A stretch of DNA of 64,000 bases from Vicinamibacterales bacterium (GTDB taxonomy: Bacteria; Acidobacteriota; Vicinamibacteria; Vicinamibacterales; Fen-181): NCBI GenBank assembly GCA_036504215.1, contig DASXVO010000070.1:1-64000 (forward strand), read 5' to 3'. Below, piece by piece: positions 18,297 through 56,887 of this stretch. A program made the translations under genes and the position numbers. The number at the start of each line of letters is the position of its first letter. Position 1 is the first letter of the stretch. Under the pieces are notes generated by a model. The model was not told the origin of the DNA and searched no databases. It saw nothing but the letters and a program-made list of their open reading frames with translations.

Positions 18297-19048
18297 GCCT
18301 GCTCGTGTCCTGCACTGAATATCATCAAGCGTTGTCCGATCTGATCGACGGGAGCCTCGAGGGAGACGCCCGGACGCGCGTCGAATCGCACGTTCGCGAC
18401 TGCGCCGACTGCCGCCAACTGCTGGCCGATCTCAGGCACATCCGCGAGTCGGCCCGGGCGCTGCCGCGCGTCGATCTGCCCGAGTTCCTGTGGCACCGGG
18501 TCGGTGATGCCGTGGAGCGTGAAGGGCGTGCCGCGGCGCACGGAGCGCCAGCGCCGGGCCGTTCTCGGTGGACGCTTCCTGTCTGGTGGCCGGCGTGGGG
18601 CACGCTTGCCGCCGCGGCGACACTCGTCCTCGCGGCCTCGCTCGCCGGCTACTTCGCGATGCGCCCCCAACAGAAGGCCGAGCCGGCAGCGCACGTTACG
18701 GCCACCGACACCGTCCAATCCGTTGAGTCGGAACTGGATGCCGCGGACAAGCACTACGAGAAGGCGATTGCGGCGCTCGAGCTGGTGGCAAAGGACGGAC
18801 GGTCCGCACTCGACCCGAAGACCGAAGCGGTCGTCCGGAAGAGCCTGGGTGTCATCGACCAGGCCATCCTGGAGAGCCGCGCGGCCCTGAAAGCGCAGCC
18901 CACGAGCGAGGTCGCGCAGGCCACGTTGTTCGAGGCGCTGCAGCGGAAGGTCGGCCTGCTGCGCGACACCATCGCCCTCGTGAACGAGATGCGGAAGGGC
19001 AACCAGACCGGCGCGGCAACGATCGTGGGCAGTCTCGGCAAGTCATGA
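18293..19048 (+). CDS. Membrane anti-sigma factor with ZAS zinc finger
   Basis: This 251-residue inner-membrane protein should bind and hold the adjacent sigma factor. The N-terminal anti-sigma domain contains the H-x3-C-x2-C zinc motif as HVRDCADC. One membrane helix (about residues 103-125, LAAAATLVLAASLAGYFAM) separates it from a periplasmic helical domain of about 120 residues rich in Ala, Glu and Lys. The GTG start at 18293 overlaps the sigma stop by four bases, as expected for a translationally coupled pair. Its stop overlaps an ATG of the downstream DUF4097 frame in an ATGA junction. The signal sensed by the periplasmic part is unknown. Confidence 0.87.
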   Translation: MSLLVSCTEYHQALSDLIDGSLEGDARTRVESHVRDCADCRQLLADLRHIRESARALPRVDLPEFLWHRVGDAVEREGRAAAHGAPAPGRSRWTLPVWWPAWGTLAAAATLVLAASLAGYFAMRPQQKAEPAAHVTATDTVQSVESELDAADKHYEKAIAALELVAKDGRSALDPKTEAVVRKSLGVIDQAILESRAALKAQPTSEVAQATLFEALQRKVGLLRDTIALVNEMRKGNQTGAATIVGSLGKS

Positions 19049-19107
19049 GTGGCCGGCGCCGGCGCGGTGTGCCGGGGTTCAACGGATTGGTATCGCAGGG
19101 GGTTCTT

Positions 19108-20115
19108 ATGCATCGCTCATTCATCGGTGTGGCAGCCGTCGTGTCGATGGTCGCCCTCCCGCTTCCGCTCCACGCGGGCGTCGCCGGGGCGACGGACCAT
19201 TCGAGGTGGAACGCGCGCAGCTGGCGTGCGAGCTACGAGGCGCGGATGGGCCCCCAGCAGATCGAGAAGACGAGCAAGACGTTCCGCATCGGCGCGAACG
19301 GCACGCTCGACATCGGCAACGTCTCGGGGGACATGGTCATCACCGAGGCCGCGGGCGATACGATCACGATCGACGCGACGAAGAAGACCCGGGACAGCGA
19401 CGCGAGGGACGAGTTCGCCCGCACCACCGTGACGATGGTCGAGCGGGCGGGGCGCGTCGAGGTGAGAACGACCTACACGGGCCGCAACAACCACGCGTCG
19501 GTGGACTACCGGGTGACCGCGCCTCCGGGCACGGCGGTCATCGCGCACTCGGTGTCGGGCGACATCAGGATCAGCGGTATTCGCGGCGAGCTGCGGCTGG
19601 AAAGTGTCAGCGGCGACGTGTCGGCGACCGGCGCGCTCGGCGCGTCGCTCATCAAGTCCGTGTCGGGCGAGGTGACGTTGAGCGGCGTGTCCACGCAGGC
19701 CGAGTTGACCGCCTCGAGCATCAGCGGCAACGTCACGGTCACCGGTGCGAAGGTGCGCAGCCTGGACGCGGACACGGTGAGTGGCGAGCTGAAGTTGACC
19801 GACGTCTCGTGCGATCGCGCGACCGTGAAGTCGATCAGCGGCGACGTCGATTTCTCGGGGACGTTGGCCAGGAACGGGCGCTACGAGATGCAGTCGCACT
19901 CCGGCGAGATTCGGCTGATGCTCGCCGGCGACCCGGGATTCGAACTCAACGCGCAGACCTTCAGCGGCAACGTGCGGTCGGACCTGCCCGTGACGCTGCG
20001 GGCTGGTGAGTCCATCGGCGGCCGGCACAAGGGCCTGCGCGGCATCCACGGCGACGGCAGCGCGCAGCTCATCCTGCACGCCTTCAGCGGGGACATCACG
20101 ATCAGCAGGAAGTAG
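19108..20115 (+). CDS. DUF4097-family secreted beta-repeat protein
   Basis: This 335-residue protein has a signal peptide (MHRSFIGVAAVVSMVALPLPLHAG). The mature part is a right-handed beta-helix-like repeat with recurring VSGDI, SISGNV, VSGELKL and ISGDVDFSG units at about 20-residue spacing. This is typical of DUF4097, often found next to ECF sigma/anti-sigma pairs in this bacterial group. ATG 19108 was preferred because AGGGGG lies seven bases upstream and it starts a clean signal peptide. An earlier ATG at 19045 overlaps the anti-sigma stop. Function is unknown. An adhesin-like or envelope-sensing role is only suggested by context. Confidence 0.85.
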   Translation: MHRSFIGVAAVVSMVALPLPLHAGVAGATDHSRWNARSWRASYEARMGPQQIEKTSKTFRIGANGTLDIGNVSGDMVITEAAGDTITIDATKKTRDSDARDEFARTTVTMVERAGRVEVRTTYTGRNNHASVDYRVTAPPGTAVIAHSVSGDIRISGIRGELRLESVSGDVSATGALGASLIKSVSGEVTLSGVSTQAELTASSISGNVTVTGAKVRSLDADTVSGELKLTDVSCDRATVKSISGDVDFSGTLARNGRYEMQSHSGEIRLMLAGDPGFELNAQTFSGNVRSDLPVTLRAGESIGGRHKGLRGIHGDGSAQLILHAFSGDITISRK

Positions 20116-20173
20116 GCGGGAAGGCGGGGACCGGCAGTGTGCTCCCCGGCGCCGGTCCGCCTCTGCGGCCTTC

Positions 20174-20372
20174 GCCATCGGTCAGACCGCGCCGGCCACC
20201 GCGAGCCGCTCGGCGCGCGGGGAAACCAGCGCGCCAGCGATTTGTCGGCGGAAGCGCGGGGCCCCACTTCGTCACCCCACGCGGATTTCTGGCGCTTTCG
20301 CGCTGGTTTCCAACCTATCGCCCCCGCGACGCCTCGACGGCTCGCTGCGCCCGGCGCGGTCTGACCGATGGC
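20174..20372. repeat. Dispersed palindromic element, copy A
   Basis: This 199-bp imperfect palindrome lies between two convergent genes. Its outermost 22 bases (20174-20195) are the exact reverse complement of 20351-20372. Nested inside are inverted GGAAACCAGCGCG (20220-20232) and CGCGCTGGTTTCC (20299-20311), and a smaller CGCCAG/CTGGCG pair. Its core (about 20206-20346) matches copy B (about 36072-36212) in inverted orientation at high identity. It can fold into a long hairpin as RNA or cruciform DNA. It has no coding capacity of its own. It resembles a MITE or large REP-type element, and in place it could end transcription from both sides. Confidence 0.85.
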
Positions 20373-20426: not shown

Positions 20427-21953
20427 CTACAGCGCCATCACATCGAACTGCTCGTGGTGCAGCAGCGCATCGGGGCGCAGCGTCACCTCGCGCTTCAGGG
20501 CCTGTCTCAGGTCGAGCAGGACGCCGTTCTCTTCTTCGCGCAGCGCCCGTGCAATCTCCGGGTTCACGCGCAGCACGAGGCCGGGGCCGTCGAGCTCCGG
20601 TCCGATCTTCCGCACCTGCTCGAGGATCTCGTAGCAGATCGTCGAGCTCGACTTGATGGTGCCGGTGCCGGAACAGTAAGGACACGGTTCGGTCAGCACG
20701 CGTTCGAGGCTCTGCTTCACCCGCTTCCGCGTGATGATGATCAACCCGAAATCCGACACGGCGAGCGCTTTCGACGGCGACCGATCCTTCTTCAGCTCCA
20801 GCTCGACCGCCTGCAGCACCTTCTGACGGTTCTTCTTCTCCTCCATGTCGATGAAGTCGAGGACGATGATCCCCCCGAGGTCGCGCAGGCGAACCTGCCG
20901 CACGATCTCCTTCACCGCTTCGAGGTTGGTCTTGACGATCGTGTCTTCCAGCCGGCCGTTCTTCTTGCCGACGTAGCGTCCCGTGTTCACGTCGATCGCC
21001 ACCAGCGCCTCGGTCTGGTTGACGACGATGTAGCCGCCCGACTTCAGCCAGACCTTGCTCTTCAGCGCCTTGTCCACCTCGGACTGGACGCCGTATTCCT
21101 CGAAGATGGGAAACGGCTTGTCGTAGAGCTTCACGCGCGACGAGATCGCCGGCATCACGCGGTCCACCATCTCGCGGACGCGCTGGTACTCCTGGCGGTC
21201 GTCGATGCGGATGGCCGAGAACTCCTCGGTGAGCAGGTCGCGGAGCAGCTTGGTCACGAGGCCCTGCTCGCGGTAGATGACCGCGGGCGCGCGGACCGAC
21301 TCGGACCGCTGCCGCACGTCGTTCCAGATCCGCTGGAAGTAGGTGAGGTCGTCGATGAGGTCTTCGGGCGGGCGGGCGGCGGTGGCCGTGCGGATGATGA
21401 CGCCGCCGATGAAGCCCTGCTGCTCGCGGAACTCGCGGACGATGCCCCGCAGGCGGGCCCGTTCGTCGCGCGACTCGATCTTGCGGGACACGCCGACGTG
21501 GTCGACGGTCGGCATGAACACGAGGAACCGCCCCGCCATCGTGACGTGGCACGTCAGCCGGGCTCCCTTCGTGCCGAGGGGCTCCTTGGCCACCTGGACG
21601 ATGACCTCCTGGCCTTCGCGCAGGAGATCCTCGATCTTCGCGCTGCTTCCGGCTTCGCGTTCCCGGCGGCCCTCGTCCTCGGACTCCTCGTCGTCACCAG
21701 ATTCGAGGCGGTCGAACTCCTCCATCGTGTTGACGACGTCGGTGACGTAGAGGAAGCCGTCGCGCTCGAGACCGATATCCACGAACGCGGACTGCATCCC
21801 CGGGAGGACCTTGGACACGCGCCCCTTGTAGACGTTGCCCACCACCCCGCGCTGACGTTCGCGCTCGATGAAGATCTCGGTCACCAGGTCGTCCTCGAGA
21901 ATCGCCACCATGGTCTGGTGGCCGTTCGAGGAGACGATCATCTCCTTGTTCAT
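20427..21953 (-). CDS. rng: Ribonuclease G/E family endoribonuclease
   Basis: This 508-residue protein processes rRNA and mRNA. It has an S1-like RNA-binding domain near residues 35-125 (GVVGNVYKGRVSKVLPGMQSAFVD), interrupted by an acidic insert (ESGDDEESEDEGRRE). The catalytic Mg-binding aspartates are in ALVAIDVNTGRYVG and GGIIVLDFIDM. The zinc-link cysteines that join subunits are in EPCPYCSGTG. There is no long C-terminal degradosome scaffold, so it is RNase G-like in size. It follows the rodA gene at the end of the mre cluster, as RNase G genes often sit near mre genes. The 205-base gap and a hairpin upstream suggest it may have its own promoter. Confidence 0.93.
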   Translation of the reverse strand: MNKEMIVSSNGHQTMVAILEDDLVTEIFIERERQRGVVGNVYKGRVSKVLPGMQSAFVDIGLERDGFLYVTDVVNTMEEFDRLESGDDEESEDEGRREREAGSSAKIEDLLREGQEVIVQVAKEPLGTKGARLTCHVTMAGRFLVFMPTVDHVGVSRKIESRDERARLRGIVREFREQQGFIGGVIIRTATAARPPEDLIDDLTYFQRIWNDVRQRSESVRAPAVIYREQGLVTKLLRDLLTEEFSAIRIDDRQEYQRVREMVDRVMPAISSRVKLYDKPFPIFEEYGVQSEVDKALKSKVWLKSGGYIVVNQTEALVAIDVNTGRYVGKKNGRLEDTIVKTNLEAVKEIVRQVRLRDLGGIIVLDFIDMEEKKNRQKVLQAVELELKKDRSPSKALAVSDFGLIIITRKRVKQSLERVLTEPCPYCSGTGTIKSSSTICYEILEQVRKIGPELDGPGLVLRVNPEIARALREEENGVLLDLRQALKREVTLRPDALLHHEQFDVMAL

Positions 21954-35710: not shown

Positions 35711-35778
35711 GGACGCCTCCTCTGAGGTGCAAATCCAAGGAGATGCGTGTCTCAGCATCCCCGACCCACCCGGATCAT

Positions 35779-35907
35779 TCACGAAGGAGTATATCGCCCT
35801 TGGTAGTTCAGGCGGGCGCCAACCTGGACCCGGCGCGGGGCTTCAGAGACTCGCCCCAGGAATCCGATTCCGAATTCTGGTTGACCGATTGCCCGAGACG
35901 CGGTGAT
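35779..35907 (-). pseudogene. Possible C-terminal remnant of an outer-membrane receptor
   Basis: On the minus strand a short frame ends PEFGIGFLGRV-SEAPRRVQVGARLNY before a stop. That resembles the final strands of TonB-dependent receptors in this group (FGxITSxxDPRxMQxxLRxxF). Nothing upstream continues the similarity, because the frame then enters palindromic element B. It may be the last ~40 residues of a receptor gene destroyed by rearrangement. A chance frame cannot be excluded. Confidence 0.3.
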
Positions 35908-35952
35908 GTCCGTGTCGTATCGGCCACCCCCCGGCCGGCGCTCACGCCGGCG

Positions 35953-36296
35953 GAGCGGGCCGGGCCTCGCGCCGCGCGGCGCTGTCCGGGCGAAGCCTCC
36001 CGGCGGCGGCTCTCGGTCCCCGCCCCACCACGTCGCCGGCGCGGACGGCGACCGGAGGACGCCGGGCGGAGCCGAGCCTTCGAGGCGTCGCGGGGGCGAC
36101 AGCACGGAAACCAACGCGCAAGCGCCAGAGATCCGGGTGGGGTGACGAAGTGGGGCCCCGCCCTGCCGCCGACAAACCGCTGGAGCGCTGGTTTCCCCGC
36201 GCGCCGAGCGGCTCGGCGCCGGCCGGCGTCTGCCGGGCGCCCTCGCCGGTGGGCGGCCCGGGCCCCGCGCCGCGCGGCGCGAGGCCAGATCCGCTC
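35953..36296. repeat. Dispersed palindromic element, copy B
   Basis: This 344-bp imperfect palindrome has outer arms (35953-35982 and 36267-36296) that are reverse complements at 27 of 30 bases. The core at about 36072-36212 is the reverse complement of the core of copy A (about 20206-20346), with long exact blocks such as CGGGGCCCCACTTCGTCACC (on the opposite strand). The inner GGAAACCA/TGGTTTCC inverted pair is kept with compensating-looking changes. The outer arms differ from those of copy A. It ends 18 bases from the MFS gene stop. There is no convincing coding frame. Confidence 0.82.
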
Positions 36297-36314
36297 CGAC
36301 GGGGACCGATCGCC

Positions 36315-37517
36315 TCAGACGCGCAGCCGGAGGGGACCGGCAGGGCGCGCCGGACGATTGTGCGGATGCCAGAAGCGCAGGGCGATGGCACCCACGATCA
36401 GTTGGACGACGACGACGAGGATCACGCAGGCGGGCCAGCCCCAGCGGTCCCAGAACAGCGCTGGCAACGAACCGCCGGCGCTGCCGCCCAGGTAGTAGCA
36501 AGTCGCGTACAGGCCGACCGCGAGGCCACGATTGCGCGTCGCAGCCGAACCGACGTAGCTGCTGGCCGCCGCCTGCGCGATGAACACACCGGTCGAGGCG
36601 ATCGCCAACCCGGCCAGGATCGTCGCGAGCGTGCCGACGAGTGTCAGCAACGCGCCGACGACGCCGAACGTGATCGCGACGGCCATACCGCGGTCGTGGC
36701 CATACCGATCGATGACCGGGCCGACGAACGGCGTGATCACCGCTCCGACGAGATAGACGGAGAACACGGAACCAAGCGCCACGGTACTGAGGTGAAACGG
36801 CGGCGCGGCCAGCAGGAACGTCACGTAGGTGAACAGCGCGACGAGCGAGAACAGGACGCCGGAGCCGACCACGAAGGCGCTGACCAGTTGCGGATTCCGC
36901 AGGTGGCCGACGAGCGCGTCGACCCGCGACTCTTCGCGGGCGTGAACCGGGTGCAGATCGACGGGCAGCCAGCGCCACAACGCCACAGCCGCCCCCAGGT
37001 TGAGTGCCGCGAGCACGACGAACGACGAGCGCCACGTAATGTCGGCGGCGACGACGCCGGCGATCACGCGGCCGGAAAAGCCCCCGACGACCGTGCCGCT
37101 CACGTACGCGGCCGTGGCCGCCCCGGCGCGCCATGGTGGCCACTGCTCGTGGATGTAGGCGATCGTCACCGCGAACACGCCGGGCGTGAACACCCCCTGG
37201 AGGAAGCGCCACGCGATCAACTGCCCGAGCGTGGTCGACGTGGACGCCATCAACGTGGCCAGTGCCAGCGCCAGTGCCGCGCCGACGATGACCCGCTTGC
37301 GTCCCACGCGGTCCGCCAGGCGCCCGACGAGGGGGGCCGCGATCGCGACGCCGACGGTCGAGGCCGTGACCGTGAGGCTCACGCCAAGCGTGGTGGCTTT
37401 GAACGCGCGGGCGAGGAACGGCAGCAGGGGCTGGGTCGAGTACAGATCCAGGAAGGCCGTGGCGCCCGCCAGGACGACCGGAAAGAGCCGCGGCGATTCA
37501 GAGGTCGAGGACCGCAT
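36315..37517 (-). CDS. MFS transporter (YnfM-like)
   Basis: This 400-residue inner-membrane transporter has 12 predicted helices in two halves. The loop 2-3 signature of the major facilitator superfamily is seen as GRLADRVGRKRVIVG, and a matching GPVIDRYGHDRGMAV occurs in the second half. The start FPVVLAGATAFLDLYSTQPLLPFLA matches YnfM-type or arabinose-efflux-like proteins that export small molecules by proton antiport. The substrate is unknown. It is transcribed away from the giant repeat-protein gene and followed closely by palindromic element B. Confidence 0.87.
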   Translation of the reverse strand: MRSSTSESPRLFPVVLAGATAFLDLYSTQPLLPFLARAFKATTLGVSLTVTASTVGVAIAAPLVGRLADRVGRKRVIVGAALALALATLMASTSTTLGQLIAWRFLQGVFTPGVFAVTIAYIHEQWPPWRAGAATAAYVSGTVVGGFSGRVIAGVVAADITWRSSFVVLAALNLGAAVALWRWLPVDLHPVHAREESRVDALVGHLRNPQLVSAFVVGSGVLFSLVALFTYVTFLLAAPPFHLSTVALGSVFSVYLVGAVITPFVGPVIDRYGHDRGMAVAITFGVVGALLTLVGTLATILAGLAIASTGVFIAQAAASSYVGSAATRNRGLAVGLYATCYYLGGSAGGSLPALFWDRWGWPACVILVVVVQLIVGAIALRFWHPHNRPARPAGPLRLRV

Positions 37518-37865: not shown

Positions 37866-40800
37866 GTGCACGAGAGAACGGCTCCCACCTCGATCCGCAC
37901 CCTGGCCGTCATCATCGCCCTTCTGCTGTCGGTGGGGTGGGCGAATGCGCAGACCGGAGCGATCTCTGGAACCGTGACGTCGGCTGCAACCGGGTTGCCG
38001 ATCAACGGCTTCACGATCGGCATCACGGTTTACACGAGCAGTGGAGGCCTCGTTGGAGGCGTGTGGTCCGACACCTCGGGTGTCTACACGATGAGCGGCC
38101 TCACGCCGGGCACCTACTACGTCCGGATCAGTCCGACGGGATTACCGGGGGGGTATCTCTCGCAGATCTACAACGGCATCAACTGCGGCAACACCTGCCC
38201 GGCCGTGACGACCGGCGCACCGGTCACGGTAACCGCGAGTGTGACGACGCCGAACATCAACTTCTCGCTCCTCACGGCTGGCTTCATCTCGGGGACGGTC
38301 CGCGACGCCCAGACGTCGGCGCCGCTGTCGAACGTCAGGGTCTACGTCTACCTGGCCGACGGTTCGCAATACGACTACGTGACGACCCTTCCGGACGGCA
38401 CGTATCGAACCTACAACGGCCTCGCCACCGGCACCTATTACCTGCGCACATGGAACTGGTCGAACTACATTGACCAGTTGTACGCTGGCACGCCATGCCC
38501 GAACTGGGTCTGCAGTCTCAGCACGGGCACGCCGGTGTCGGTCACGGCGGGGTCCACGACGGCGGGCCGCGATTTCGCCCTTGCGCCTGGCGGCAGCATC
38601 TCCGGAACGGTGACGGCCGCCGGCACCGGGACGCCACTCGCCAGCCTCACGGTCTCGTTCTATAACTCCGGCGGATCGTTGCTCGGGTCGGTCACTACCA
38701 ACGCCAGCGGCGCCTACGCGACCTACCTCGGCCTGCCGAGTGGCAGCTACTACCTGAAGACGAGCGGCGGCAACGGCTACGCCGGACAGGTGTACAGCGG
38801 ACAGAACTGCGGGACCACGTGCCCGCCGGCGACGATGGGCACCGCGGTGCAGGTCACGGCGCCGCAGGCGGCGACGGGCGTTGACTTCGCGCTCGTGCAG
38901 AACGGCCAGATCACGGGGACGGTGACGGCCGCGGGAACCGGCACGCCCATCCAGAATGCGAGCGTCGTCGCGTACTCGCTCGGCCGAAACCCGGTCAGCA
39001 CCGTCACCACGAACGCCAGCGGGATCTACACCCACTCGCTGCCACCCGGTCAGTACTACGTCCGCACGTCGAACGTCACCGGCTACATCGACCAGCTGTA
39101 CCCGAGCCTGGCGTGCCCGGCCAGCAACTGCTACCTCCAGACCGGCACACCGATCACCGTAGCGGCCGGCGCACCTGCGTCGAACATCGACTTCTCGCTG
39201 GCGGCGGGCGGCGCCATCTCGGGCACGGTGACGGGGGCGGTGCCGGGCACGCCGCTGCTGTCCGGGGTGACGGTCACAATCTACGACGTCTCGGGATACA
39301 GCAAAGGGACCGCAACGACGGGCGCCGATGGGACCTACACCGCCGCGATCAACCTGCCGACCGGCAGCTACTACGCGAAGGTGACGAACAGCCCAGGATG
39401 GGCGCCGCAGGTCTACTCCGCCTTCCCGTGCCCAGGCGGCTCGTGCCCGGTGACCAATGGCACCCCCATCCCGGTCACGGCGGGCGCGACGCGATCCGGC
39501 GTCAGCTTCGCGCTGGCGCCGACGGGGCAGATCAGCGGCACGGTCCGGGCGGCAGGAACCCTCGCGCCATTGACGCTTGTGAGCGTCAGCGCGTGTCCGC
39601 TGGGCGGCGGCAACTGCATGTCGTCATCGACAGATGCGGGCGGCGCGTACGCGATCTCCGGCCTCTCTGCGGCCACGTACTACCTGCGGACATCGAACTA
39701 CGTCGGATACGTGGACCAGCTCTATCCGGCGGTCACCTGTCCGAACTGGACGTGCTCGACGAGTCTCGGCGCGCCGGTCGTGCTGACATCCGGCGGCGCG
39801 CTGACGGGCAAGGACTTCACGCTGTCGCAGGGGGCTACGGTGTTAGGGTCGGTCACTGCGGCGGGAAGCGGGCTGCCAATCGCCAACGTCACGGTCGACA
39901 TCTACAACGACCTCGGCTGGTACGTTGACAGCACCACCCCCGGGAGCCTCGGCGGCTACACGACGACGGTCGGCCTGCCTCCCGGCACCTACTACGCGCG
40001 GGCCAACGCGAATTCCAGCGCCTACCAGAGCCAGAACTACCAGGCGTTCGACTGCGGCGCGTCGTGTCCGTCGGCCACGATGGGAACGCCGCTGACCATC
40101 ACGGGGACCACGTCCCTCACCAACATCAACTTCGCGCTGACGCCCACGGCCGGCGTAACGGGCACGGTGAGGTCGGCGGCGACGGGCGCGCCGATCGCTG
40201 GTGTGTTGGTTCACGCTCGAAGCGCCTCCGGCATCATCCTGGTCCAGGGCTCCACGAACAGTCTTGGCGCCTACACGCTGAACGTGCCGCTGACCACCGG
40301 CACGGTGTACGTCACCACGGCGAACCCCTTCGGCTACATCGATCAGATTTACGGCGGCGGGACGTGCGTCGCGGCGGCCTGCTCGATGCGGACGGGAACC
40401 GGGGTGCCGGTTGCCGCCGGTGCGACGGTCTCGGGTATCGACTTCTCGCTGGCAACAGGCGGCGGGATTGCCGGCCTCATCACGACCGCCGGCACGGGCG
40501 TCGGCCTCGCCAATGTCTCGGTCACCGTCTTCTCGGCGGCGGGCACGGGCCTGACCACGATCTCCACCGATTCTTCGGGCGCCTACACCACGGTGATCGG
40601 CCTGCCCACTGGCAGCTACTACGTTCGCACGTCGAACTCGAACGGCTACGTCGACCAACTCCACAGCGGCATCACGTGCCGTCTCGGCAGTTGCACGGTG
40701 CTCACCGGCACGCCGGTCGCGGTTGTCGCCGGCGCCACGTCCAGCGTCAACTTCTCGCTGGCGCGTGGCGGGGCAATCCAGGGCACCGTCAGGGCGGCGG

Positions 40801-43800
40801 GAACCGGAGCGCCGCTGCCAGGCATCTCCGTCTCGATCTACAGCGACACGGGGGCGATGGTCGGAAGCTTCGTCACGACGGACGTCAACGGCGTGTTCGC
40901 GACGAATGCCGGCCTGACCCCCGGGAACTACTTCCTCAGAACGGAGGCCACGTCCGGGTACATCAACCAGGTGTACAGCGGGCTGACGTGCGCGTCCTCG
41001 TGTCCGCTGGCGACCGACGGCACGCCGGTCGCGGTGACCGCCGGCGCCACGACGTCCGGCATCGCCTTCACGTTGCCGGCTACCGCCACGATTAGCGGAA
41101 CGATCACGGCCGCGGGAAGCGGCTCGCCGATCGCGGGCGTGACGGTGAACGTGCTCAACAGCTCTGGTTACTCGGCCGGCTCGGCGGTGACGAACGGGAC
41201 CGGAGCCTACGTGACGACCGTACCACTCGTCACCGGCACCTACTACCTGCGGACGGTGAACGCGCTCGGCTACGTCGACCAGGTCTCCGGCGGGCGGGAA
41301 TGCCCGTTCTCGAGCTGCAGCGCGCTGACGGGGCAGCCGATCGGCGTGACGGCCGGCGTCGCGACGACGGGCGTGGACTTTGCGCTCGGCGTCGGCGGAA
41401 TCGTCACCGGCACGGTGACGGCGGCCGGCAGCGGCGCCCGCCTCGCCGGCGTGTCGGTGACCATCGCCTCGAGCGCGGGCAGCCTGAGCACGACGACGAA
41501 TGCGGCGGGCGTCTACGCGACGCAGACGGGCCTGCCGACCGGTACCTACTTCGCCATGATCTACGGGACATCGGGCTACCTCGGGCAACTCTACGGCGGC
41601 CAGATCTGCGGCACATCGTGCCCGTCGACCATGTCCGGGCAGCCGTTCGCCGTGACGGCGCCGCAGACGACGTCTGGAATCGACTTCAGCCTGGCGGCCG
41701 GCGGAATCATCACGGGCACGGTGAGGGCGAGCGGCACGAACGATCCGCTGGCCGGGGTCTCGGTCTCGATCCTGAATTCGAGCGGCGGTGTCGTGAACAC
41801 CGTGGGCACCAACGGCGCCGGCGTCTACAGGACCACGACGGGTCTGCCCACCGGGACATACTACGTGCGGACGGCGAGCCAGCCTGCGTACATCGGCCAG
41901 ATCTACACCGGGGCGGATTGCCCGGCGGCAACGTGCCCGATCACGCTGGGCACGCCGGTGCCGGTGACGGCTGGCGGAACGACTGCCAGCGTCGACTTCC
42001 TTCTGAAACCGGGTGGCAGGATCACGGGCACCGTCGTCGATGCGGCCACCCTCGTGCCGCTGACGACGACGGTCATGCTCTACGACAGCGTGGGAGTGTT
42101 CGTCTCGTCCACGTCCACCTCCGGCGGCGTCTACACCACTCCGGCGTTGCCGAACGGCTCGTACTTCCTGAAGACGTCGAGCGGAGCGTCGTCGCAGTAC
42201 GTCGATCAGCTCTACAACGGCTTGCCGTGTCGCACCGCCACGTGCCTGGTGACGAACGGCACGCCGGTGAGCATCACGACGGTTGCCACCGTGTCCGGGA
42301 TCAACTTCGCCCTGCCGATGGGCGGCGCGATCCGGGGCACGGTCACGGCAGCCGGGAGCGGCGCACCGCTCGTGAACGTGCCTGTGGTCGCGACCACGGA
42401 CGGAGGTGCCGGCACCGGCAGCACGGTCTACACCGACAGCAACGGCGTCTACATGATCCCCGGCCTCCCAACCGGCGGGTACTTCGTGAAGACGAATCTG
42501 ACGGCCTACGGCTACTTCAACCAGATCTACAGCGGCCTGAACTGCTCGACCTCGTGCCAGGCGGCGACGGACGGCACGCTCGTTGGCGTCACGGCCGGAT
42601 CGACAACCTCGGGCATCAACTTCGCCCTGACGGGCGGCGGGTCGATCGCGGGCACGGTGAGAGCCGCGGGAAGCGGCACGCCGATTCCCGGTGTGACGGT
42701 CCAGTTCTACAACTCCAGCGGAGCCTCTCTCGCGGCGGTCCTGACGAACAGCAGCGGGGTCTACGCGACTGACGTGCCGCTGCCGACCGGCCTCTACTAC
42801 CTCCGAGCATACGGTGCACCGGGGTACGTCGACCAGCTGTACGCGGCGACCAACTGTGTCGGCACGTGCACGGTCACGTCGGGCGCCGCGGTGCCGGTGA
42901 ACGCCGGCGTGCAGACGACGGGCGTCGATTTCGCGCTCTCCCCCGCCGGCACCATTTCCGGAATCGTGACGGCCGCGTCCGGCGGCGCGCCGCTGTCGGG
43001 CGTTCAGGTCGGCGTGTACACGACGGCGGGCGCGCTCGTCGGCTCGACGACGACAAATACCAGCGGCGTGTACGCCACGTCGCTCGGCCTGGCCACGGGG
43101 CTCTACTACGTGCGAGCCGGGGGCGTGGGAACCTTCGTGGGGCAGCTCTACGGCGGCGCCGCGTGCCCGGCCACGCCCTGCACGTGGACATCCGGGACAC
43201 CGGTGGCGGTGACGTCAGCGGTGACGACACCGGGCATCGACATCGCGCTCGTCTCGGGCGGCCAGGTCACCGGCACGGTGACGGCGGCCGGGTCGAGCAC
43301 GCCGCTGCCCGGGGTGGTGATCAGCGTGTATTCGCCCACCGGAAGCTTCGTCTCGTCGGCCACGACGGTCGGCAACGGCAGCTACGCCGTGCAGGGAGTC
43401 CTCGCCGGGTCGTACTACGTTCGCACGACCACCGCGACGGGCTACATCCACCAGATCTACTCGGGTGTGAACTGCGGCCCATCGTCGTGCCCGTTCGCCG
43501 GCGCCACCACGGTAGCTGTCACGGCCGGCGGCACGACCCCGGCCATTGACTTCGCATTGGCTCAGGGAGGCGTCCTCACCGGCGCGGTGACCGCAGCCGA
43601 CACCGGCCTGCCGATCGCGGGCTCGGTCAGGCTCTACGACAGCACGGGAACCTCGGTCACATCATCCGGCCTGAACAGCGCCGGCGTCTTCAGCATTCCC
43701 GGGCTGCCGACCGGCACGTATTACCTGTTCACGTCGAACGCGTCGGGCTACGTGGACAGGCTGTACGCCGACCTGCCGTGCGTGAGCGCCAACTGCGTCG

Positions 43801-46800
43801 CGCGCGAGGGGACGCCGATTGCCGTGACGGCCGGCGCCACGACGGGCGGCATCAACTTCGTGCTGTCACGCGGCGGGTTCATCGGCGGCACGGTGACGGC
43901 TGCGGCGACCGGCGCGTCAATCTACGGCGTGGCCGTGGGGGTCTACAACGCAAGCGGCACGGCGGTCGCCACGGTGGCCACCGACACCAACGGCCTCTTC
44001 ACCACTGCGCCGACCGGGCTCTTGCCGGGCGCCTACTACGTCAAGACGCAGGCCACGGTGCTGTATCTCAACCAGGTGTACTCGGGCGTGATCTGCGGCA
44101 CGTCGTGTCCGTCTTCCTGGCTGGACGCCACACCGGTGACGGTCACCGCCGGAACGACGACGTCGGGCATCGATTTCGCGCTCGGCCGGGGCGGGTCGAT
44201 CTCGGGCACGGTCCGCACATCGGGCGGAACGCCGCTGCCCGGCGTCGGCGTGGTCTTCTTCAACAGCAGCGGCTCGAACCTCGGGCGCGCGACGACGAAC
44301 GCCAGCGGCGCGTACACGACCAACGTACCGCTGCCGGCCGGGATCTACTACCTGCGAACCGTGAACGCCTTCGGCTCGGTCGACCAGTTGTATTCGGGCG
44401 TTCCATGCGCCGACTCCTCCTGCTCGGCGACAGGGGGTACGCCGGTCACGGTGGCGGCCGGCCAGCCCACCACAGGCGTCGACTTCAGCCTGTCGGCCGG
44501 CGGCGGCATCAGCGGAACGGTGACGCGCGGCGGCCTGCCCGTCGCAGGCGCGTCGGTCGCTGCCTACTGGGGCAACGGCAGCACCGCGTACACCGCCACC
44601 ACCGACGCCAGCGGCGCGTATGTGATTCCGTGGTCGCTCGCGGCCGGCTCGTATTACGTGCGAGCGTCGGTGGCGGGATCGCTGCCGCAGGTCTACCCCA
44701 GCCTCAACTGTCCGACGACCACGTGCTATGTCACGATGGGCACGCTGGTGCCCGTGGCCGTCGGCGCGACGACGACAGGCATCGACTTCGCGCTGGCACC
44801 GGGCGGCCGGATCAGCGGCAAGGTGACGGCGGCCGGAACCGGCACGCCGTTGTCGGGCGTGTCGGTTTCCATTTACACGGTCAGCGGGTCATCGACATCA
44901 ACCGTCGAGACCGTCACCACGGGCGGTGACGGCATCTACACCTCCACCGGCACCCTCGGGACCGGCTCCTACGCGGTCAGGGCTGCCAACAGCGGCACGT
45001 ACCTTGGGCAGGTCTACGGCGGCGCGAGTTGTGCGGCAAACGACTGCCGCGTGGCGGCCGGCGCGCTGGTGCCCGTCACGGCCGGCGCGACGACGTCCAA
45101 CATCGACTTCGCGCTCGTCCAGGGAGGCCAGATCTCCGGGACGATCGCCCTGCCCGGAAGCCCGGGCCCGGTGTCGGTCTGCGTGTACGTCTACAACAAC
45201 GCGAGCCAGTACATTTCCAGCAACTGCACGACCACCGGGGTCTACACGACCGGCGTGCTGGCTCCCGGGCAGTACTACCTGCAGACCTACAACTCCGCCG
45301 GCGCGCTCGACCAGGCGTACAACGGCGTCGCGTGCCCACGTGCCACGTGCAGCGCCACGATTGGAACGCCGGTCACCGTCACCGCCGGTGCGACGACGTC
45401 CGGCATCAACTTCTCGCTGCCACCGGGCGGCCTGATCAGCGGGACGGTGACGGCCGCGGGCACCGGCGCGCCCGTATCCGGCGTATCGGTGCAGGTCGTG
45501 TCCGAGACGGGGTCCGGCGTTGGCTCGTACACAACCGATGCCAACGGTTTCTACATGACGTCGGGCGGCCTGCCGACGGGCACGTACTTCCTGACGGCGA
45601 ACTCACGGGCCGGGTACTTCGGTCAGGTCTATCACAGCCTCGATTGCGGCACGTCGTGCACGTCGACGGTAGCCGGCACGCCGGTGAGCGTGACGCTTGG
45701 TGCGATCACGTCGGGCATCGACTTCGCGTTGCCGAAGGGCGGCTCGATCAGCGGCACGGTGACGGCGGCGATTGGCGGGGCACCGCTGGCCGGCGTCAGG
45801 GTATACGTCTACACCAGCACGGGCAGCAACCCCGGGTCGTGGACGACCAACGACAGCGGCCGGTTCAGTGTCGACACCCCGCTCGAGGCCGGCACCTATT
45901 ACCTGCGCGCGTCGAGCCCGCAGGGCTTCGTCGATCAACTCTACGGCGGGACGGCCTGCCCCGGCGGCACGTGCACGGTCACCACCGGAACGCCGGTCAC
46001 GGTGGCGGCATCGACGCCGACGACCGGCATCAACTTCGCGCTCTCGCAGGGCGCCGGCATCAAGGGGACGGTGACCGCGGCCGGCACCGGTGCGCCGCTG
46101 GCGGGCATCAGCGTCACGGCCTACGGCCCGACCGGCACGATGTTCGGTTCGGCCGTCACCAACGGCAACGGCGCCTACTCGATTCCGAACGTGCTGGCAG
46201 CGGGCGACTACTACCTCCAGGCGTCCAACGCGCTCGGCTATCTCAACCAGATCTACAACCAGGTCAACTGCGGCTCGACGTGCCCGCCGACGCCCACGGG
46301 CGCGGTCGTCGCGGTGACGGCCGGAGCCGTGCGAACCGGCATCGACTTCTCGCTGACGCCTGGCGGGAGCATCGCCGGCACCGTGACCGAGGCGGCGACC
46401 GGCCGTCCGGTCAGCAATGCATCCGTCTACGTCTACGACAGCGCCGGAAACCAGGTGCAGTCGCCGAGGACGAATGTCGGCGGCGTCTACACCACGACCA
46501 CCGGCCTCGCCGCCGGCACCTACTACCTGCGCACGTCGGCGGGAAGCGGATACATCGACAAGGTGTACGCCAACGCCACGTGCCCCGCGGGCACGACGTG
46601 CCACGCGATGGCCGGCACGGCGGTCGTTGTCACGCTCGGCGCGGCGACCTCGAACATCAACTTCTCGCTCGACAAGGGCGGCGGGATCAGCGGCACGGTC
46701 ACCGATGCCGCGACGGGTGTTCGGCTGACGAACGTCGAAGTTGATATCTACGATTCGGCGGGCAGCTACATCTCGTACCTCTACACCGACAGCTTCGGCA

Positions 46801-49493
46801 CCCTCTACACCGCTTCCGGCCTGGCCACCGGAACCTACTACCTGAGGACCTATGTCTACGGAAGCGATGGGTACCTCGACCAGGTGTATTCAGGCCTGGC
46901 ATGCGGATCGTCGTGCTCTGCGTCTGGTGGCACGCCGGTCAGCGTGACGGCCGGCGCCACGACCAGCGGTGTTGATTTCGCCCTCGTCAAGGGCGGCACC
47001 GTTTCCGGAACGGTGCGCGAGGCTGGGACGAATCTGCCGCTGGCCGGCGTCAACGTGTCGATCTACGCCGAGACCGGTGTGTTGTTGACAACGGGGACGA
47101 CCAACGGCGCGGGCTTCTATCGCGCCACGGGGATTCCCGCCGGCACCTACTTCGCCAGGACGACGAACTCCAAGGGGTACGTGGACGTGCTGTACCCGGG
47201 AACGGCGTGCGGCACGTGCATCGTCACCAAGGGAACGCCGTTGGCCGTCACGGCGGGCAACGACACCGGCGGCATCGACTTCACACTGCCCGTCGGCGGC
47301 TCGATTGCGGGCACGATCACCGACGAGGCCTCGCACCTGCCGCTGAAGGGCGTCTCGGTCGTGGTCTACGACGGACTCGGTCGCGGCACCACATCGGTCG
47401 TCACCGACGCCGCGGGTGCCTACTCGAAGACCGGCCTGGCGACTGGGAACTACTTCATTCGCACGTCGAACTCCCTGGGCTACGTCGACGAACGGTTCGA
47501 CAACGCCCCATGTCCCGGCGCCTCTTGCATCGTCGTCGAGGGGACGCCGATTGCCGTCACGGCGGGCAGCGCCACGACGGGGAAGGACATCGCGCTGGCG
47601 ATGGGAGGATCGATTGTCGGGAAGGTGACGAGCGCTGCGACCGGGTTCCCGCTGCCGAGCATCTACGTTTATGCCTACGACAGCAGCGGCAGGTCGCTCA
47701 GCAGCGTCAGGACGAACGCCGTCGGCGTCTATACGAGGTCCGGCCTCCCGGCCGGCAACTACTACCTCTACGCGTACGGGTCGGTCGGCTCGACGGGATA
47801 CGTCACGCAGGTCTACTCGGGCGTTGCGTGTCCGCAGTCGACCTGCTCGGTGACGAAGGGGACGGGCGTCACCGTGGCTGCCGGCGTGCCGACTACCGGG
47901 ATCGACTTCGCGATGGATCCGGCAGGAGTCATCACCGGCACCGTGACTCGGGCGGGAAATGGAACGCCGCTGATGAAGGAGTCGGTCTACGTCTACAACG
48001 CAACCGGGCAACTCCTCACGTCGACCACCACCGACGGGTCGGGCACGTATCGTCTGACCGGACTGGCCACAGGGAGCTACTACGTGTGGGCCGGCAGCCG
48101 GTCCTCCGAACCCGTTGGCTACATCGGGCTCCTCTATCCGGCGATTCCGTGCCCGAACGCAACCTGCGTCGTACTCGCCGGAACGCCCGTTGCGGTGTCC
48201 GGCGGGGCGACCACCGCGAACATCAACTTCGCGCTCGCGCCATCGGGCACGATTAGCGGCGCGATTACCGACGGCTCGTCCGGCGCGCCAGTCGTCGGCG
48301 CCAGCGTCTCCGCGTGGGATCAGGCCGGGAAGGTGATCGCCACGATCAGCGCGTCGATAACCGGCACATACACGTTGTCGGGGCTGCCGACGGGGACGTA
48401 CTTCGTGAAGGCGTCGAACACCGCACTTGGCTACGTAGGGAAGGTGTACGCCGCGCTGGTGTGCCCGGGAAGCGCCTGCTCGCCGGCCGCCGGAACACCC
48501 GTGGCGGTAACGGCAGGGGCCGCGACGCCTGGCATCAACATCGCGCTCAGCAAGTCGGCCGGCTCGATCTCCGGCCTCGTCACCGATGCCGCGACGGGCG
48601 GCGGCATCGCAGGCAGCGTCACGGTCAACGCCTACGACGTGCTCGGGCGGGTGGCGGGCTCCACGCCCGTCTCGTCCGGCAGTTACACCATCACCGGGCT
48701 TCCGGTCGGGACGTACCGCGTGGCGACCGCGAACTCGGTCGGTTGGCTCAATCGCATGTACTCGGGCGTGGCCTGCGCCGGGGATTGCGATCCGCGGGTG
48801 GGAACCCCGGTGGCGGTGGCGGCGTCTGCAACGACATGGGGCATCGATTTCGCGCTGACGTTGGGCGGATCCATCAAGGGCACGGTCACAGACAAGACCA
48901 ACGGCGCCCTGGTGCTGCAGGCCTCGGTGCAGGTGTACAACGGCACGGGCGCACTCGTCGCCACGACGCAGACGACAACTGGCAGCTACGCGCTCACCCT
49001 CCCGGCCGGCACGTACTTCCTCCGGACGACGAGCGTGTCAGGCTACAGCAACCAGGTCTTCTCGGGCGTCGCGTGCCCGGGTGGGACGTGCCCGGTCACC
49101 AGCGGCACGCCGGTGAGCGTCGTCGTCGAGACGATGGTGCCGGACGTCAATTTCGTGCTCGACCGCAACCCGCTGGCGTTCACGGACGACCCGCTGCAGG
49201 CGCGCATGACGACGATCAAGGCCGCGCACGTCACGGAGTTGCGCCAGCGGATCGACGACCTCCGCGTGCGCTACTCGCTGCCGGCGTTCTCATGGAGCGA
49301 TGCGCCGCTGGCCGCCGGGGCGACGCGTGTGAAGGCGGCGCACATCGCGGAGCTCCGAACCGCGTTGGACGAGGTGTACGACGCGGCCGTACGCCTGCGG
49401 CCGACCTACACCGGGCCGGCGCCGACGGCCGGGACGGCGGTGTCGGCCGTGCACATCACCGAGGTGCGTGCGGCGATCGCGGACATCTGGTAG
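37866..49493 (+). CDS. Giant secreted protein with ~36 tandem beta-sandwich-like repeats
   Basis: This is a single 3875-residue frame. A signal peptide (LAVIIALLLSVGWANAQTG) is followed by about 36 repeats of roughly 103 residues, counted by hand from the recurring GGxISGTVTAAGTGxPLxGVxV opening. Each unit continues with TNxxGxY, GLPTGTYYxRTSN, GYxxQxYxG, a cysteine pair (CxxxC or CxxxxC), then GTPVxVTAGxTTxGIDFAL. The ISGTV...TNASGxY...TGxYY pattern is that of carboxypeptidase-regulatory/Cna_B-like domains. The last 101 residues form a different domain with three helical repeats (KAAHVTELRQ, KAAHIAELRT, SAVHITEVRA), a C-terminal module I associate with secreted Acidobacteriota proteins. There is no PEP-CTERM, LPXTG or membrane anchor. 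The start is GTG with GGAGG five bases upstream. A structural or adhesive surface role is inferred. Confidence 0.92.
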   Translation: MHERTAPTSIRTLAVIIALLLSVGWANAQTGAISGTVTSAATGLPINGFTIGITVYTSSGGLVGGVWSDTSGVYTMSGLTPGTYYVRISPTGLPGGYLSQIYNGINCGNTCPAVTTGAPVTVTASVTTPNINFSLLTAGFISGTVRDAQTSAPLSNVRVYVYLADGSQYDYVTTLPDGTYRTYNGLATGTYYLRTWNWSNYIDQLYAGTPCPNWVCSLSTGTPVSVTAGSTTAGRDFALAPGGSISGTVTAAGTGTPLASLTVSFYNSGGSLLGSVTTNASGAYATYLGLPSGSYYLKTSGGNGYAGQVYSGQNCGTTCPPATMGTAVQVTAPQAATGVDFALVQNGQITGTVTAAGTGTPIQNASVVAYSLGRNPVSTVTTNASGIYTHSLPPGQYYVRTSNVTGYIDQLYPSLACPASNCYLQTGTPITVAAGAPASNIDFSLAAGGAISGTVTGAVPGTPLLSGVTVTIYDVSGYSKGTATTGADGTYTAAINLPTGSYYAKVTNSPGWAPQVYSAFPCPGGSCPVTNGTPIPVTAGATRSGVSFALAPTGQISGTVRAAGTLAPLTLVSVSACPLGGGNCMSSSTDAGGAYAISGLSAATYYLRTSNYVGYVDQLYPAVTCPNWTCSTSLGAPVVLTSGGALTGKDFTLSQGATVLGSVTAAGSGLPIANVTVDIYNDLGWYVDSTTPGSLGGYTTTVGLPPGTYYARANANSSAYQSQNYQAFDCGASCPSATMGTPLTITGTTSLTNINFALTPTAGVTGTVRSAATGAPIAGVLVHARSASGIILVQGSTNSLGAYTLNVPLTTGTVYVTTANPFGYIDQIYGGGTCVAAACSMRTGTGVPVAAGATVSGIDFSLATGGGIAGLITTAGTGVGLANVSVTVFSAAGTGLTTISTDSSGAYTTVIGLPTGSYYVRTSNSNGYVDQLHSGITCRLGSCTVLTGTPVAVVAGATSSVNFSLARGGAIQGTVRAAGTGAPLPGISVSIYSDTGAMVGSFVTTDVNGVFATNAGLTPGNYFLRTEATSGYINQVYSGLTCASSCPLATDGTPVAVTAGATTSGIAFTLPATATISGTITAAGSGSPIAGVTVNVLNSSGYSAGSAVTNGTGAYVTTVPLVTGTYYLRTVNALGYVDQVSGGRECPFSSCSALTGQPIGVTAGVATTGVDFALGVGGIVTGTVTAAGSGARLAGVSVTIASSAGSLSTTTNAAGVYATQTGLPTGTYFAMIYGTSGYLGQLYGGQICGTSCPSTMSGQPFAVTAPQTTSGIDFSLAAGGIITGTVRASGTNDPLAGVSVSILNSSGGVVNTVGTNGAGVYRTTTGLPTGTYYVRTASQPAYIGQIYTGADCPAATCPITLGTPVPVTAGGTTASVDFLLKPGGRITGTVVDAATLVPLTTTVMLYDSVGVFVSSTSTSGGVYTTPALPNGSYFLKTSSGASSQYVDQLYNGLPCRTATCLVTNGTPVSITTVATVSGINFALPMGGAIRGTVTAAGSGAPLVNVPVVATTDGGAGTGSTVYTDSNGVYMIPGLPTGGYFVKTNLTAYGYFNQIYSGLNCSTSCQAATDGTLVGVTAGSTTSGINFALTGGGSIAGTVRAAGSGTPIPGVTVQFYNSSGASLAAVLTNSSGVYATDVPLPTGLYYLRAYGAPGYVDQLYAATNCVGTCTVTSGAAVPVNAGVQTTGVDFALSPAGTISGIVTAASGGAPLSGVQVGVYTTAGALVGSTTTNTSGVYATSLGLATGLYYVRAGGVGTFVGQLYGGAACPATPCTWTSGTPVAVTSAVTTPGIDIALVSGGQVTGTVTAAGSSTPLPGVVISVYSPTGSFVSSATTVGNGSYAVQGVLAGSYYVRTTTATGYIHQIYSGVNCGPSSCPFAGATTVAVTAGGTTPAIDFALAQGGVLTGAVTAADTGLPIAGSVRLYDSTGTSVTSSGLNSAGVFSIPGLPTGTYYLFTSNASGYVDRLYADLPCVSANCVAREGTPIAVTAGATTGGINFVLSRGGFIGGTVTAAATGASIYGVAVGVYNASGTAVATVATDTNGLFTTAPTGLLPGAYYVKTQATVLYLNQVYSGVICGTSCPSSWLDATPVTVTAGTTTSGIDFALGRGGSISGTVRTSGGTPLPGVGVVFFNSSGSNLGRATTNASGAYTTNVPLPAGIYYLRTVNAFGSVDQLYSGVPCADSSCSATGGTPVTVAAGQPTTGVDFSLSAGGGISGTVTRGGLPVAGASVAAYWGNGSTAYTATTDASGAYVIPWSLAAGSYYVRASVAGSLPQVYPSLNCPTTTCYVTMGTLVPVAVGATTTGIDFALAPGGRISGKVTAAGTGTPLSGVSVSIYTVSGSSTSTVETVTTGGDGIYTSTGTLGTGSYAVRAANSGTYLGQVYGGASCAANDCRVAAGALVPVTAGATTSNIDFALVQGGQISGTIALPGSPGPVSVCVYVYNNASQYISSNCTTTGVYTTGVLAPGQYYLQTYNSAGALDQAYNGVACPRATCSATIGTPVTVTAGATTSGINFSLPPGGLISGTVTAAGTGAPVSGVSVQVVSETGSGVGSYTTDANGFYMTSGGLPTGTYFLTANSRAGYFGQVYHSLDCGTSCTSTVAGTPVSVTLGAITSGIDFALPKGGSISGTVTAAIGGAPLAGVRVYVYTSTGSNPGSWTTNDSGRFSVDTPLEAGTYYLRASSPQGFVDQLYGGTACPGGTCTVTTGTPVTVAASTPTTGINFALSQGAGIKGTVTAAGTGAPLAGISVTAYGPTGTMFGSAVTNGNGAYSIPNVLAAGDYYLQASNALGYLNQIYNQVNCGSTCPPTPTGAVVAVTAGAVRTGIDFSLTPGGSIAGTVTEAATGRPVSNASVYVYDSAGNQVQSPRTNVGGVYTTTTGLAAGTYYLRTSAGSGYIDKVYANATCPAGTTCHAMAGTAVVVTLGAATSNINFSLDKGGGISGTVTDAATGVRLTNVEVDIYDSAGSYISYLYTDSFGTLYTASGLATGTYYLRTYVYGSDGYLDQVYSGLACGSSCSASGGTPVSVTAGATTSGVDFALVKGGTVSGTVREAGTNLPLAGVNVSIYAETGVLLTTGTTNGAGFYRATGIPAGTYFARTTNSKGYVDVLYPGTACGTCIVTKGTPLAVTAGNDTGGIDFTLPVGGSIAGTITDEASHLPLKGVSVVVYDGLGRGTTSVVTDAAGAYSKTGLATGNYFIRTSNSLGYVDERFDNAPCPGASCIVVEGTPIAVTAGSATTGKDIALAMGGSIVGKVTSAATGFPLPSIYVYAYDSSGRSLSSVRTNAVGVYTRSGLPAGNYYLYAYGSVGSTGYVTQVYSGVACPQSTCSVTKGTGVTVAAGVPTTGIDFAMDPAGVITGTVTRAGNGTPLMKESVYVYNATGQLLTSTTTDGSGTYRLTGLATGSYYVWAGSRSSEPVGYIGLLYPAIPCPNATCVVLAGTPVAVSGGATTANINFALAPSGTISGAITDGSSGAPVVGASVSAWDQAGKVIATISASITGTYTLSGLPTGTYFVKASNTALGYVGKVYAALVCPGSACSPAAGTPVAVTAGAATPGINIALSKSAGSISGLVTDAATGGGIAGSVTVNAYDVLGRVAGSTPVSSGSYTITGLPVGTYRVATANSVGWLNRMYSGVACAGDCDPRVGTPVAVAASATTWGIDFALTLGGSIKGTVTDKTNGALVLQASVQVYNGTGALVATTQTTTGSYALTLPAGTYFLRTTSVSGYSNQVFSGVACPGGTCPVTSGTPVSVVVETMVPDVNFVLDRNPLAFTDDPLQARMTTIKAAHVTELRQRIDDLRVRYSLPAFSWSDAPLAAGATRVKAAHIAELRTALDEVYDAAVRLRPTYTGPAPTAGTAVSAVHITEVRAAIADIW

Positions 49494-49549: not shown

Positions 49550-50750
49550 CACCTCTCGGCTGAGCTGGCTTGGTCGGCGGGTTCTGCGTGACGGCCAACG
49601 TCTGGCCGCCCACCACGATCGACCCGCTGCGAGCCGACGTCGTGGAGTTGTGCAGGAGGGCGTAGTTCAATGTGGCCGTGCCCGTCCCGCTCGTGCTCGC
49701 CAATGTGAGCCACGTTGCGCCCGTGGTCGCGGTCCACCCGCAACTCGTCGCGCTGGCCGTCACCGTCACGCTGCCGCTACTCGCCGCCGACGTGAACGTT
49801 TGAGTTGTCGGCGACAGCGTGAACGTGCAAGGTGGCGGTGCCGCGGCCTGCGTCACGACGAACGCCTGGCCACCGATTGTGACCGTGGCGCTTCGCGCCG
49901 CCCCGGTATTGCCCGCCACAACGATGTTCACCGAGCTCGTACCGGTACCACTGGCCGGGCTCACCGATACCCAGGCCGATCCGCTCGATGCCGTCCATCC
50001 GCACCCCGTTGCGCTGGCCGTGACCGTCACGCTGCCGCTGCCGGCCGCCGACGTGAACGCCTGGCTCGTCGCCGAGAGGGCGATTGTGCAGGGCGGCGGC
50101 GCGGCTGCCTGCGTCACGACGAACGCCTGGCCACCGATCGTGAGCGTGGCGCTTCGCGCCGCGCCGGTATTCTCTGCCACGACGATACTCACCGCGCCGG
50201 TGCCGGTACCGCCGGCCGGACTCACCGAGACCCAGGCGGAGCCGCTCGATGCGGTCCATGCGCAACTCGTCGCGCTGGCCGTCACCGTCAGGCTGCCGCT
50301 GCCGGCCGCCGACGTGAACGTCTGAGTTGTCGCCGACAGCGTGAACGTGCAGGGTGGCGGCGCGGCTATGGCTTGAAAGCTGAATTGATTCGATGGAGCG
50401 CTCTGCCCGCTCCCGCTCGCCCCGATCGCCGCGACACGCGCCTCGTAGTCACCGGTGGCCAGCGGCCACGCAGTGAGCAGCGTGGAGAAATCGACGCGGA
50501 TCTTGCCGTCGGCAGCTGGCACCGGCTTCCCGAGGTTCGTCGTGATCACCGGCTGGGTCGCGCCAAGAAGGAAGAACTGCAGATCGTATCGCTGAACGAC
50601 CGGCGTTCCGTCCGGCGCCAACACCGCGTGGTCGGCCGATGGATCGAACTCGAGGTTTCTGGGGTTGATCACCGTGGACTGAGCGGCTGCGGGCAGCGCC
50701 ACCAACGCACACAGGATGATCGCGAACGCAACGTGAACAACTGCTCTCAC
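49524..50750 (-). CDS. Secreted protein with three BACON domains
   Basis: This 408-residue protein begins with a signal peptide (VVHVAFAIILCALVALPAAAQS; GTG start). Residues about 25-125 form an Ig-like region (PAADGKIRVDFSTLLTAWPL, then YEARVAAIGASGSG). Three consecutive BACON repeats follow, each with TxTFTSAAGSGSVTVTASAT, a CxWTASSGSAWVSVSP segment and GGQAFVVTQAA. BACON domains are thought to bind glycans or mucin-like ligands and occur in secreted enzymes and surface proteins. No enzyme domain is present here. The repeat units are also similar at DNA level. It converges on the giant gene, and both may be extracellular matrix or adhesion components. Confidence 0.88.
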   Translation of the reverse strand: MRAVVHVAFAIILCALVALPAAAQSTVINPRNLEFDPSADHAVLAPDGTPVVQRYDLQFFLLGATQPVITTNLGKPVPAADGKIRVDFSTLLTAWPLATGDYEARVAAIGASGSGQSAPSNQFSFQAIAAPPPCTFTLSATTQTFTSAAGSGSLTVTASATSCAWTASSGSAWVSVSPAGGTGTGAVSIVVAENTGAARSATLTIGGQAFVVTQAAAPPPCTIALSATSQAFTSAAGSGSVTVTASATGCGWTASSGSAWVSVSPASGTGTSSVNIVVAGNTGAARSATVTIGGQAFVVTQAAAPPPCTFTLSPTTQTFTSAASSGSVTVTASATSCGWTATTGATWLTLASTSGTGTATLNYALLHNSTTSARSGSIVVGGQTLAVTQNPPTKPAQPRGVRANSRNP

Positions 50751-52661: not shown

Positions 52662-52748
52662 GCGGAAGTGGCGGAACTGGCAGACGCGCTAGCCTCAGGA
52701 GCTAGTGGGCGCAAGCTCATCGGGGTTCAAATCCCCGCTTCCGCACCA
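52662..52748 (+). tRNA. tRNA-Leu (anticodon CAG)
   Basis: The acceptor stem GCGGAAG pairs with CTTCCGC, and the CCA end is encoded. The anticodon stem CTAGC/GCTAG encloses the loop CTCAGGA, giving anticodon CAG. A long variable arm (TGGGCGCAAGCTCA) is typical of class II tRNA-Leu, and the T-arm CGGGGTTCAAATCCCCG is perfect. It looks functional. The accessory DNA starts directly after it. Confidence 0.97.
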
Positions 52749-52751
52749 TTC

Positions 52752-52841
52752 GACTCGGTCGCTCCCTTCGCCAACTCCCTCGCTCATGGCAGGCCAGACT
52801 CGGTCGCTCCCTTCGCCAACTCCCTCGCTCATGGCAGGCCA
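52752..52841. repeat. Perfect 45-bp tandem duplication after the tRNA
   Basis: The 45 bases at 52752-52796 are repeated exactly at 52797-52841, starting three bases after the tRNA CCA end. The unit includes CAACTCCCTCGCTCATGGCA. An exact duplication suggests a recent event. It may mark an unstable integration junction. Confidence 0.92.
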
Positions 52842-56837: not shown

Positions 56838-56887
56838 GGGGCCGGGACAGTGTCAGATCTCGGACGTCATGGCCGCACGTGCGACAG

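Follow-up and report, generated by a model that had tools for sequence, protein, structure and literature searches.

Mobile insertion cassettes (MICs) carry cargo genes between inverted ends and have no transposase, and integron attC sites are strand-specific hairpins in which structure is conserved above sequence. REPINs and REP-BIMEs, which are linked to RAYT proteins, are dispersed, non-autonomous extragenic palindromes whose hairpins show compensatory changes (PMC3116915). ERIC (RU-1), Correia, and NEMIS MITEs are intergenic imperfect palindromes of 100-250 nt with patchy copy number, and some bacterial MITEs have terminal inverted repeats or have been reported in pairs around cargo such as integrons (PMC10969869). 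The family of elements described here resembles MICs, attC sites, REPINs, and ERIC-like MITEs in these respects. Compared with REPINs, however, its members are longer (~200-350 nt), occur in few copies per genome, conserve the tip and internal loops rather than the ends, and have no detected RAYT link. Compared with ERIC elements and MITEs, they occupy another taxon, have another sequence, are palindromic over their full length with a conserved multi-loop fold, and combine related cores with two or more classes of terminal repeat, with no target duplication seen. Unlike MICs, the family has ends that are ~200-nt hairpins and most members are solo; unlike attC sites, its pairs are inverted rather than arrayed, and attC boxes were not seen.

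We conclude that these elements are probably non-autonomous mobile palindromic hairpins, MITE-, REPIN-, and ERIC-like in behavior, in which the single-strand fold is under selection. They are not classed as REPINs because no cognate RAYT was found among the matches. They are short, non-coding, dispersed, and non-autonomous, as bacterial MITEs are, and are likened to MITEs in behavior alone, since no transposase, no parent IS, and no target duplication was found.

Two inverted copies in the window

The window is the entire 64,000-nt stretch analyzed, from a genome (G000) of the Vicinamibacterales, an order of soil and water Acidobacteria that are poorly cultivated but abundant. It contains two copies of the hairpin. 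Copy B is flanked by two minus-strand genes, one for an S49 peptidase (33953 to ~35782) and one for an MFS transporter (36315-37517), and copy A sits between convergent genes for a DUF4097-like protein (19045-20115, plus strand) and a ribonuclease E/G-like protein (20427-21953, minus strand). R1 denotes the first covariance model described below.

20167-20371, minus strand: copy A, hairpin
20219-20312, minus strand: structured core of copy A (R1 match, 103.5 bits)
36073-36215 (plus strand) versus 20202-20344: core common to copies A and B, 143 nt, inverted, 91% identical
35769-35785, plus strand: CCCGGATCATTCACGAA, differing at two positions from CCCGGATTATTCATGAA, the class I terminal repeat
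35947-36302, plus strand: copy B, whole imperfect palindrome, 356 nt
35947-36016 versus 36233-36302: outer arms of copy B, 70 nt, 74% complementary
35953-36041, plus strand: 5' outer arm of copy B, 88-94% identical to part of a "type 2" palindromic repeat
36105-36198, plus strand: structured core of copy B (R1 match, 100.3 bits, E 5e-22 in its genome)
36233-36302, plus strand: 3' outer arm of copy B, which matches copy C37b on its 3' side up to ~36280

A preliminary description of this DNA had proposed that a ~140-bp core is present in opposite orientation in A and B, that the outermost 30 nt of copy B pair at 27 positions, and that the arms of the two copies differ and are nonetheless self-complementary. 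All three points agree with the features above and with the sequence read directly; the outer arms of copy A are near-perfect complements of each other and are not common to B. The palindrome at B is likewise present, but the earlier limits of 35953-36296 fall ~6 nt short on each side. The fold of 35953-36296 has a predicted energy of -242.3 kcal/mol (z -4.5), with no dinucleotide shuffle as stable, and that of copy A has -142.7 kcal/mol (z -8.4 against dinucleotide shuffles). The same genome has a further two cores, arranged in tandem, at G000:C37:71075-71722.

The window also holds other repeats: a 3875-aa ORF (37866-49493, plus strand) for a giant repeat protein with dozens of ~104-aa repeats spaced ~312 nt apart; three tandem 261-bp repeats, 74-85% alike (49707-50366); two perfect tandem 45-bp repeats (52752-52841) just after a tRNA gene (52662-52745); and a 298-nt direct repeat, 91% identical, at 53988-54285 and 56886-57183, 2.9 kb apart.

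A dispersed family with a covarying fold

Copy B belongs to a family of short dispersed DNA elements that had not been named before. Searched against 162 genomes of the window's order, a 22-mer pattern from the hairpin tip matched 15 copies in 9 of them and the reversed 22-mer matched nothing; a separate scan of named genomes returned nine named contigs, all from Acidobacteria MAGs. R1, built on the 15 copies, gave 41 positive genomes among the 162, and a second model (R2), built on 67 matches, gave ~168 matches (summed from the table) in 44 of the 162 genomes and 32 genera, with up to 13 per genome. In a 396-genome sample of the phylum, matches were confined to the window's order, with none outside it. 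Copies are mostly intergenic, are spread over the 44 genomes, and contain no conserved ORF; covariance-model searches and site comparison showed presence to be patchy even inside one genus. Rfam 15 yielded nothing convincing and no curated family at gathering or permissive thresholds, and we found no published description of the family in the open-access literature.

The preliminary description had suggested that structure is selected and had proposed a covariation test on an alignment of all copies; the covariation and the empty sites described below support that suggestion. Alignments made with a covariance model are biased toward the model's own structure, and the first covariation test used a plain MAFFT alignment, in which 15 of 26 predicted pairs showed compensatory changes. 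With named structures, 14 of 24 pairs were altered on both sides among the 15 copies, and all 24 had two-sided compensatory changes among 62 distinct rows, in which 95.8% of cells were paired. Compensated cells numbered 275, compared with 65 in shuffles, and none of 500 shuffles reached the observed value; moving the structure by 1-3 columns collapsed the signal to 52 cells or fewer. While the stems change, internal loops (GGAG, GAAATCC, GCCGAC) stay conserved and unpaired across genera.

Copies at least 88% identical differed by 0.17-0.47 double versus 1.2-1.7 single-sided changes per copy pair, whereas with divergence doubles climbed to 9.6 per copy pair and singles leveled off at ~2. Single-sided differences between close copies and two-sided differences between distant ones fit stepwise compensation under selection better than a transfer of sequence from one arm to its partner. 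In the outer arms, G.T mismatches outnumbered A.C mismatches by 125 to 64 (local alignment with symmetric scoring, copies not all independent), an excess indicating that one strand is the folding strand. This strand would be the plus strand of B and the minus strand of A, modeled as a long hairpin whose internal loops are fixed. An intrastrand triplex for GGGG...GGGGCCCC was dropped because tip sequences vary.

Sites, arms, and paired copies

Comparison with empty sites, as also proposed in advance, found the element absent at the site of copy A in four relatives (G003, G004, G005, G006) and at the syntenic site of copy B in two congeneric genomes (G001, G002); the MAGs compared are different species, and no recent transposition was observed. 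One site in genus g37 is empty in G105, has a solo hairpin in G106, and has a hairpin-cargo-hairpin unit in G108. The empty g37 allele (L110) contains an arm-like stretch and may be a deletion scar left by loss of the element. No target-site duplication was seen at the junctions inspected, where element ends are inexact. In a crude ORF-based count, 32 copies lay between convergent genes, 5 between divergent genes, and 14 each in same-strand and opposite-strand orientation, and another 14 overlapped ORF predictions, many of them doubtful; by these counts, copies prefer gene 3' ends. A same-genus relative has another GC-rich palindrome at the site of copy A (L155, G001:C379:2500-4300), and this intergenic spot may attract such palindromes.

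The preliminary description had further proposed that arms are rebuilt or exchanged. Most arm divergence instead reflects stepwise compensation, but exchange holds in part: the 5' outer arm of B corresponds to a separate repeat module, and at least two unrelated terminal-repeat classes occur elsewhere in the family. The module, the type 2 repeat, lacks the core and is found in the same genome on contigs C37, C85, C81, C10, C42, and C19. Its loci (L015:1-280, L014, L012, L013, L011, L010) lie at or near several contig ends, a position which suggests that the repeat breaks assembly. The 3' side of B tracks C37b up to a 13-nt palindrome (CGCCGCGCGGCGC, ~36280), past which it diverges and turns complementary to the 5' arm of B itself. 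At L109, both hairpins of the unit have cores 93% alike, but their outer arms are unrelated, each being self-complementary.

In several genera, CCCGGATTATTCATGAA or TAACACTACTTTGTCACTTT is inverted at member ends, giving at least two unrelated TIR-like classes on related cores in part of the family. Class I (CCCGGATTATTCATGAA) occurs in G007, G008, G018, G023, and G076, in some cases degenerate, and class II (TAACACTACTTTGTCACTTT) in G023, G079, and others. Copies A and B and the g37 units carry neither class, and the ends given for them are approximate; CCCGGATCATTCACGAA at 35769-35785 is possibly a relic end, with no partner seen to the right. In viral contigs, the class I pattern had no match and the class II pattern had one, probably by chance. 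In G007, hairpins at L179 and L181 (contigs C46 and C45) lie within a larger palindrome of ~400 bp that has terminal repeats of the same type. The differing terminal-repeat classes, together with the presence of B's 5' arm as a module elsewhere in the genome, argue that arms are exchanged as well as compensated, and compensated drift and outer-arm replacement both occur. We conjecture that new arms would arise by joining another palindromic module or by duplicating flanking sequence.

Some copies form inverted pairs 0.5-3 kb apart, of which 11 were in minus/plus order and none in plus/minus order (two-sided sign test, 0.001, or 0.002 with the site shared by L111 and L112 counted once); a few hairpin pairs are direct. 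The two ends of a unit are mostly 92-96% alike (~80% in two units), and identity between g37 units is as high as 94%, which suggests, without proving, that the two ends move together. Cargo is unrelated between units and, in 9 of 10, poorer in GC than the flanking DNA. It consists of small genes that look imported, some of them defense-like; among the products are an N6/N4 DNA methylase carrying a restriction-like domain, a TIR protein, and a protein weakly resembling AAA proteins. L111 and L112 share one site, the same flanks, and the same hairpins, yet their cargo is unrelated. Partner hairpins were not found around G023, G131, and most G007 copies, and most members elsewhere are solo, so pairing is not general in the family.

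Alternative explanations and implications

The main rival to a mobile hairpin is a host RNA function, in which a structured RNA or 3'-UTR element (a transcript stabilizer, RNase E/III site, or sRNA) would be selected in the host and dispersed by chance. RNA-like covariation, the conserved unpaired loops, the one-strand preference for G.U-type mismatches, and the position at gene 3' ends are what such an element would show. We nevertheless consider it unlikely, as orientation relative to tandem genes is unbiased (14 same, 14 opposite), no neighbor gene is conserved among the loci read, presence is patchy within a genus with duplicates at unrelated sites, and Rfam gave no match. Also unlikely is a new gene-cassette system with the hairpin as its structure-recognized recombination site, in which inverted hairpin pairs would bound exchangeable, lower-GC, partly defense-related cargo swapped at a fixed site, as at L111/L112. 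Palindromes are known to be corrected by template switching or mismatch repair, and the covariation could be mutational if one arm were copied onto the other. The 3' arm of B parts from its relative precisely where a small inner palindrome lies, and the two copies in G017, read by eye, differ by compensated outer-arm changes, both in keeping with arm copying; this origin is still quite improbable, given that differences between close copies are mainly one-sided, that copying would erase internal loops that stay unpaired and conserved across genera, and that G.T and A.C mismatches are asymmetric.

We regard mobilization as a REP/REPIN family by a RAYT (a Y1 HUH transposase) as highly improbable. 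G000 does encode a Y1_Tnp protein whose 150 aa include an HVH motif, and REPIN hairpins change in the same compensatory way (PMC3116915), but the repeats on either side of this single Y1_Tnp (GTGGCACGGGCGTCCCGCCCGTG units) are its own and unrelated to the family, R1 finds nothing at its locus, and REPINs conserve two ends and vary inside, the reverse of the pattern here. Identity with the REP of the one RAYT detected in G000 is therefore disfavored; that locus (L034, G000:C54, ORF 1351-1803), with its RAYT-like Y1 transposase and tandem 35-36 bp units, is a separate REP system. Equally remote is identity with integron attC sites or CALIN-type cassettes. These too are hairpin sites with conserved structure, variable sequence, and lower-GC cargo, and integrases occur very widely across the order (E<=1e-30 in 80 of the 162 genomes, with 50 above the curated cut-off), including 28 of 44 element-bearing genomes and 52 of 118 others (counted from tables). 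This association with intI is weak, however, G000 has no integron integrase match, pairs are inverted and never in head-to-tail arrays, most copies are solo, and RYYYAAC/GTTRRRY boxes were not seen in the stems by reading; after the intI distribution test, the integron explanation was not favored. At one G007 locus (C42, L178:3645-4130), a family hairpin directly adjoins a truncated integron integrase fragment.

The mobile hairpin under single-strand selection is thus the reading we prefer. At the level of sequence, the family combines dispersal, same-site presence and absence in relatives, and compensatory stem evolution with a gene 3'-end preference, terminal-repeat subfamilies, and inverted pairs framing varied cargo. 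Selection would see the folded single strand, as an ssDNA transposition intermediate or as RNA, and a putative transposase acting in trans would recognize the ends, the fold, or both. Copies between genes would be tolerated because coding sequence and promoters are spared, and two neighboring copies could mobilize the DNA between them as a composite unit.

The family provides strong covariation statistics for a mobile palindrome in which the fold is kept while arms drift and are exchanged, and it offers a way to test whether folded single strands are the form in which bacterial interspersed palindromes are recognized. If the inverted pairs with exchanged cargo are mobile, they would constitute a route of gene acquisition in these soil and water bacteria.
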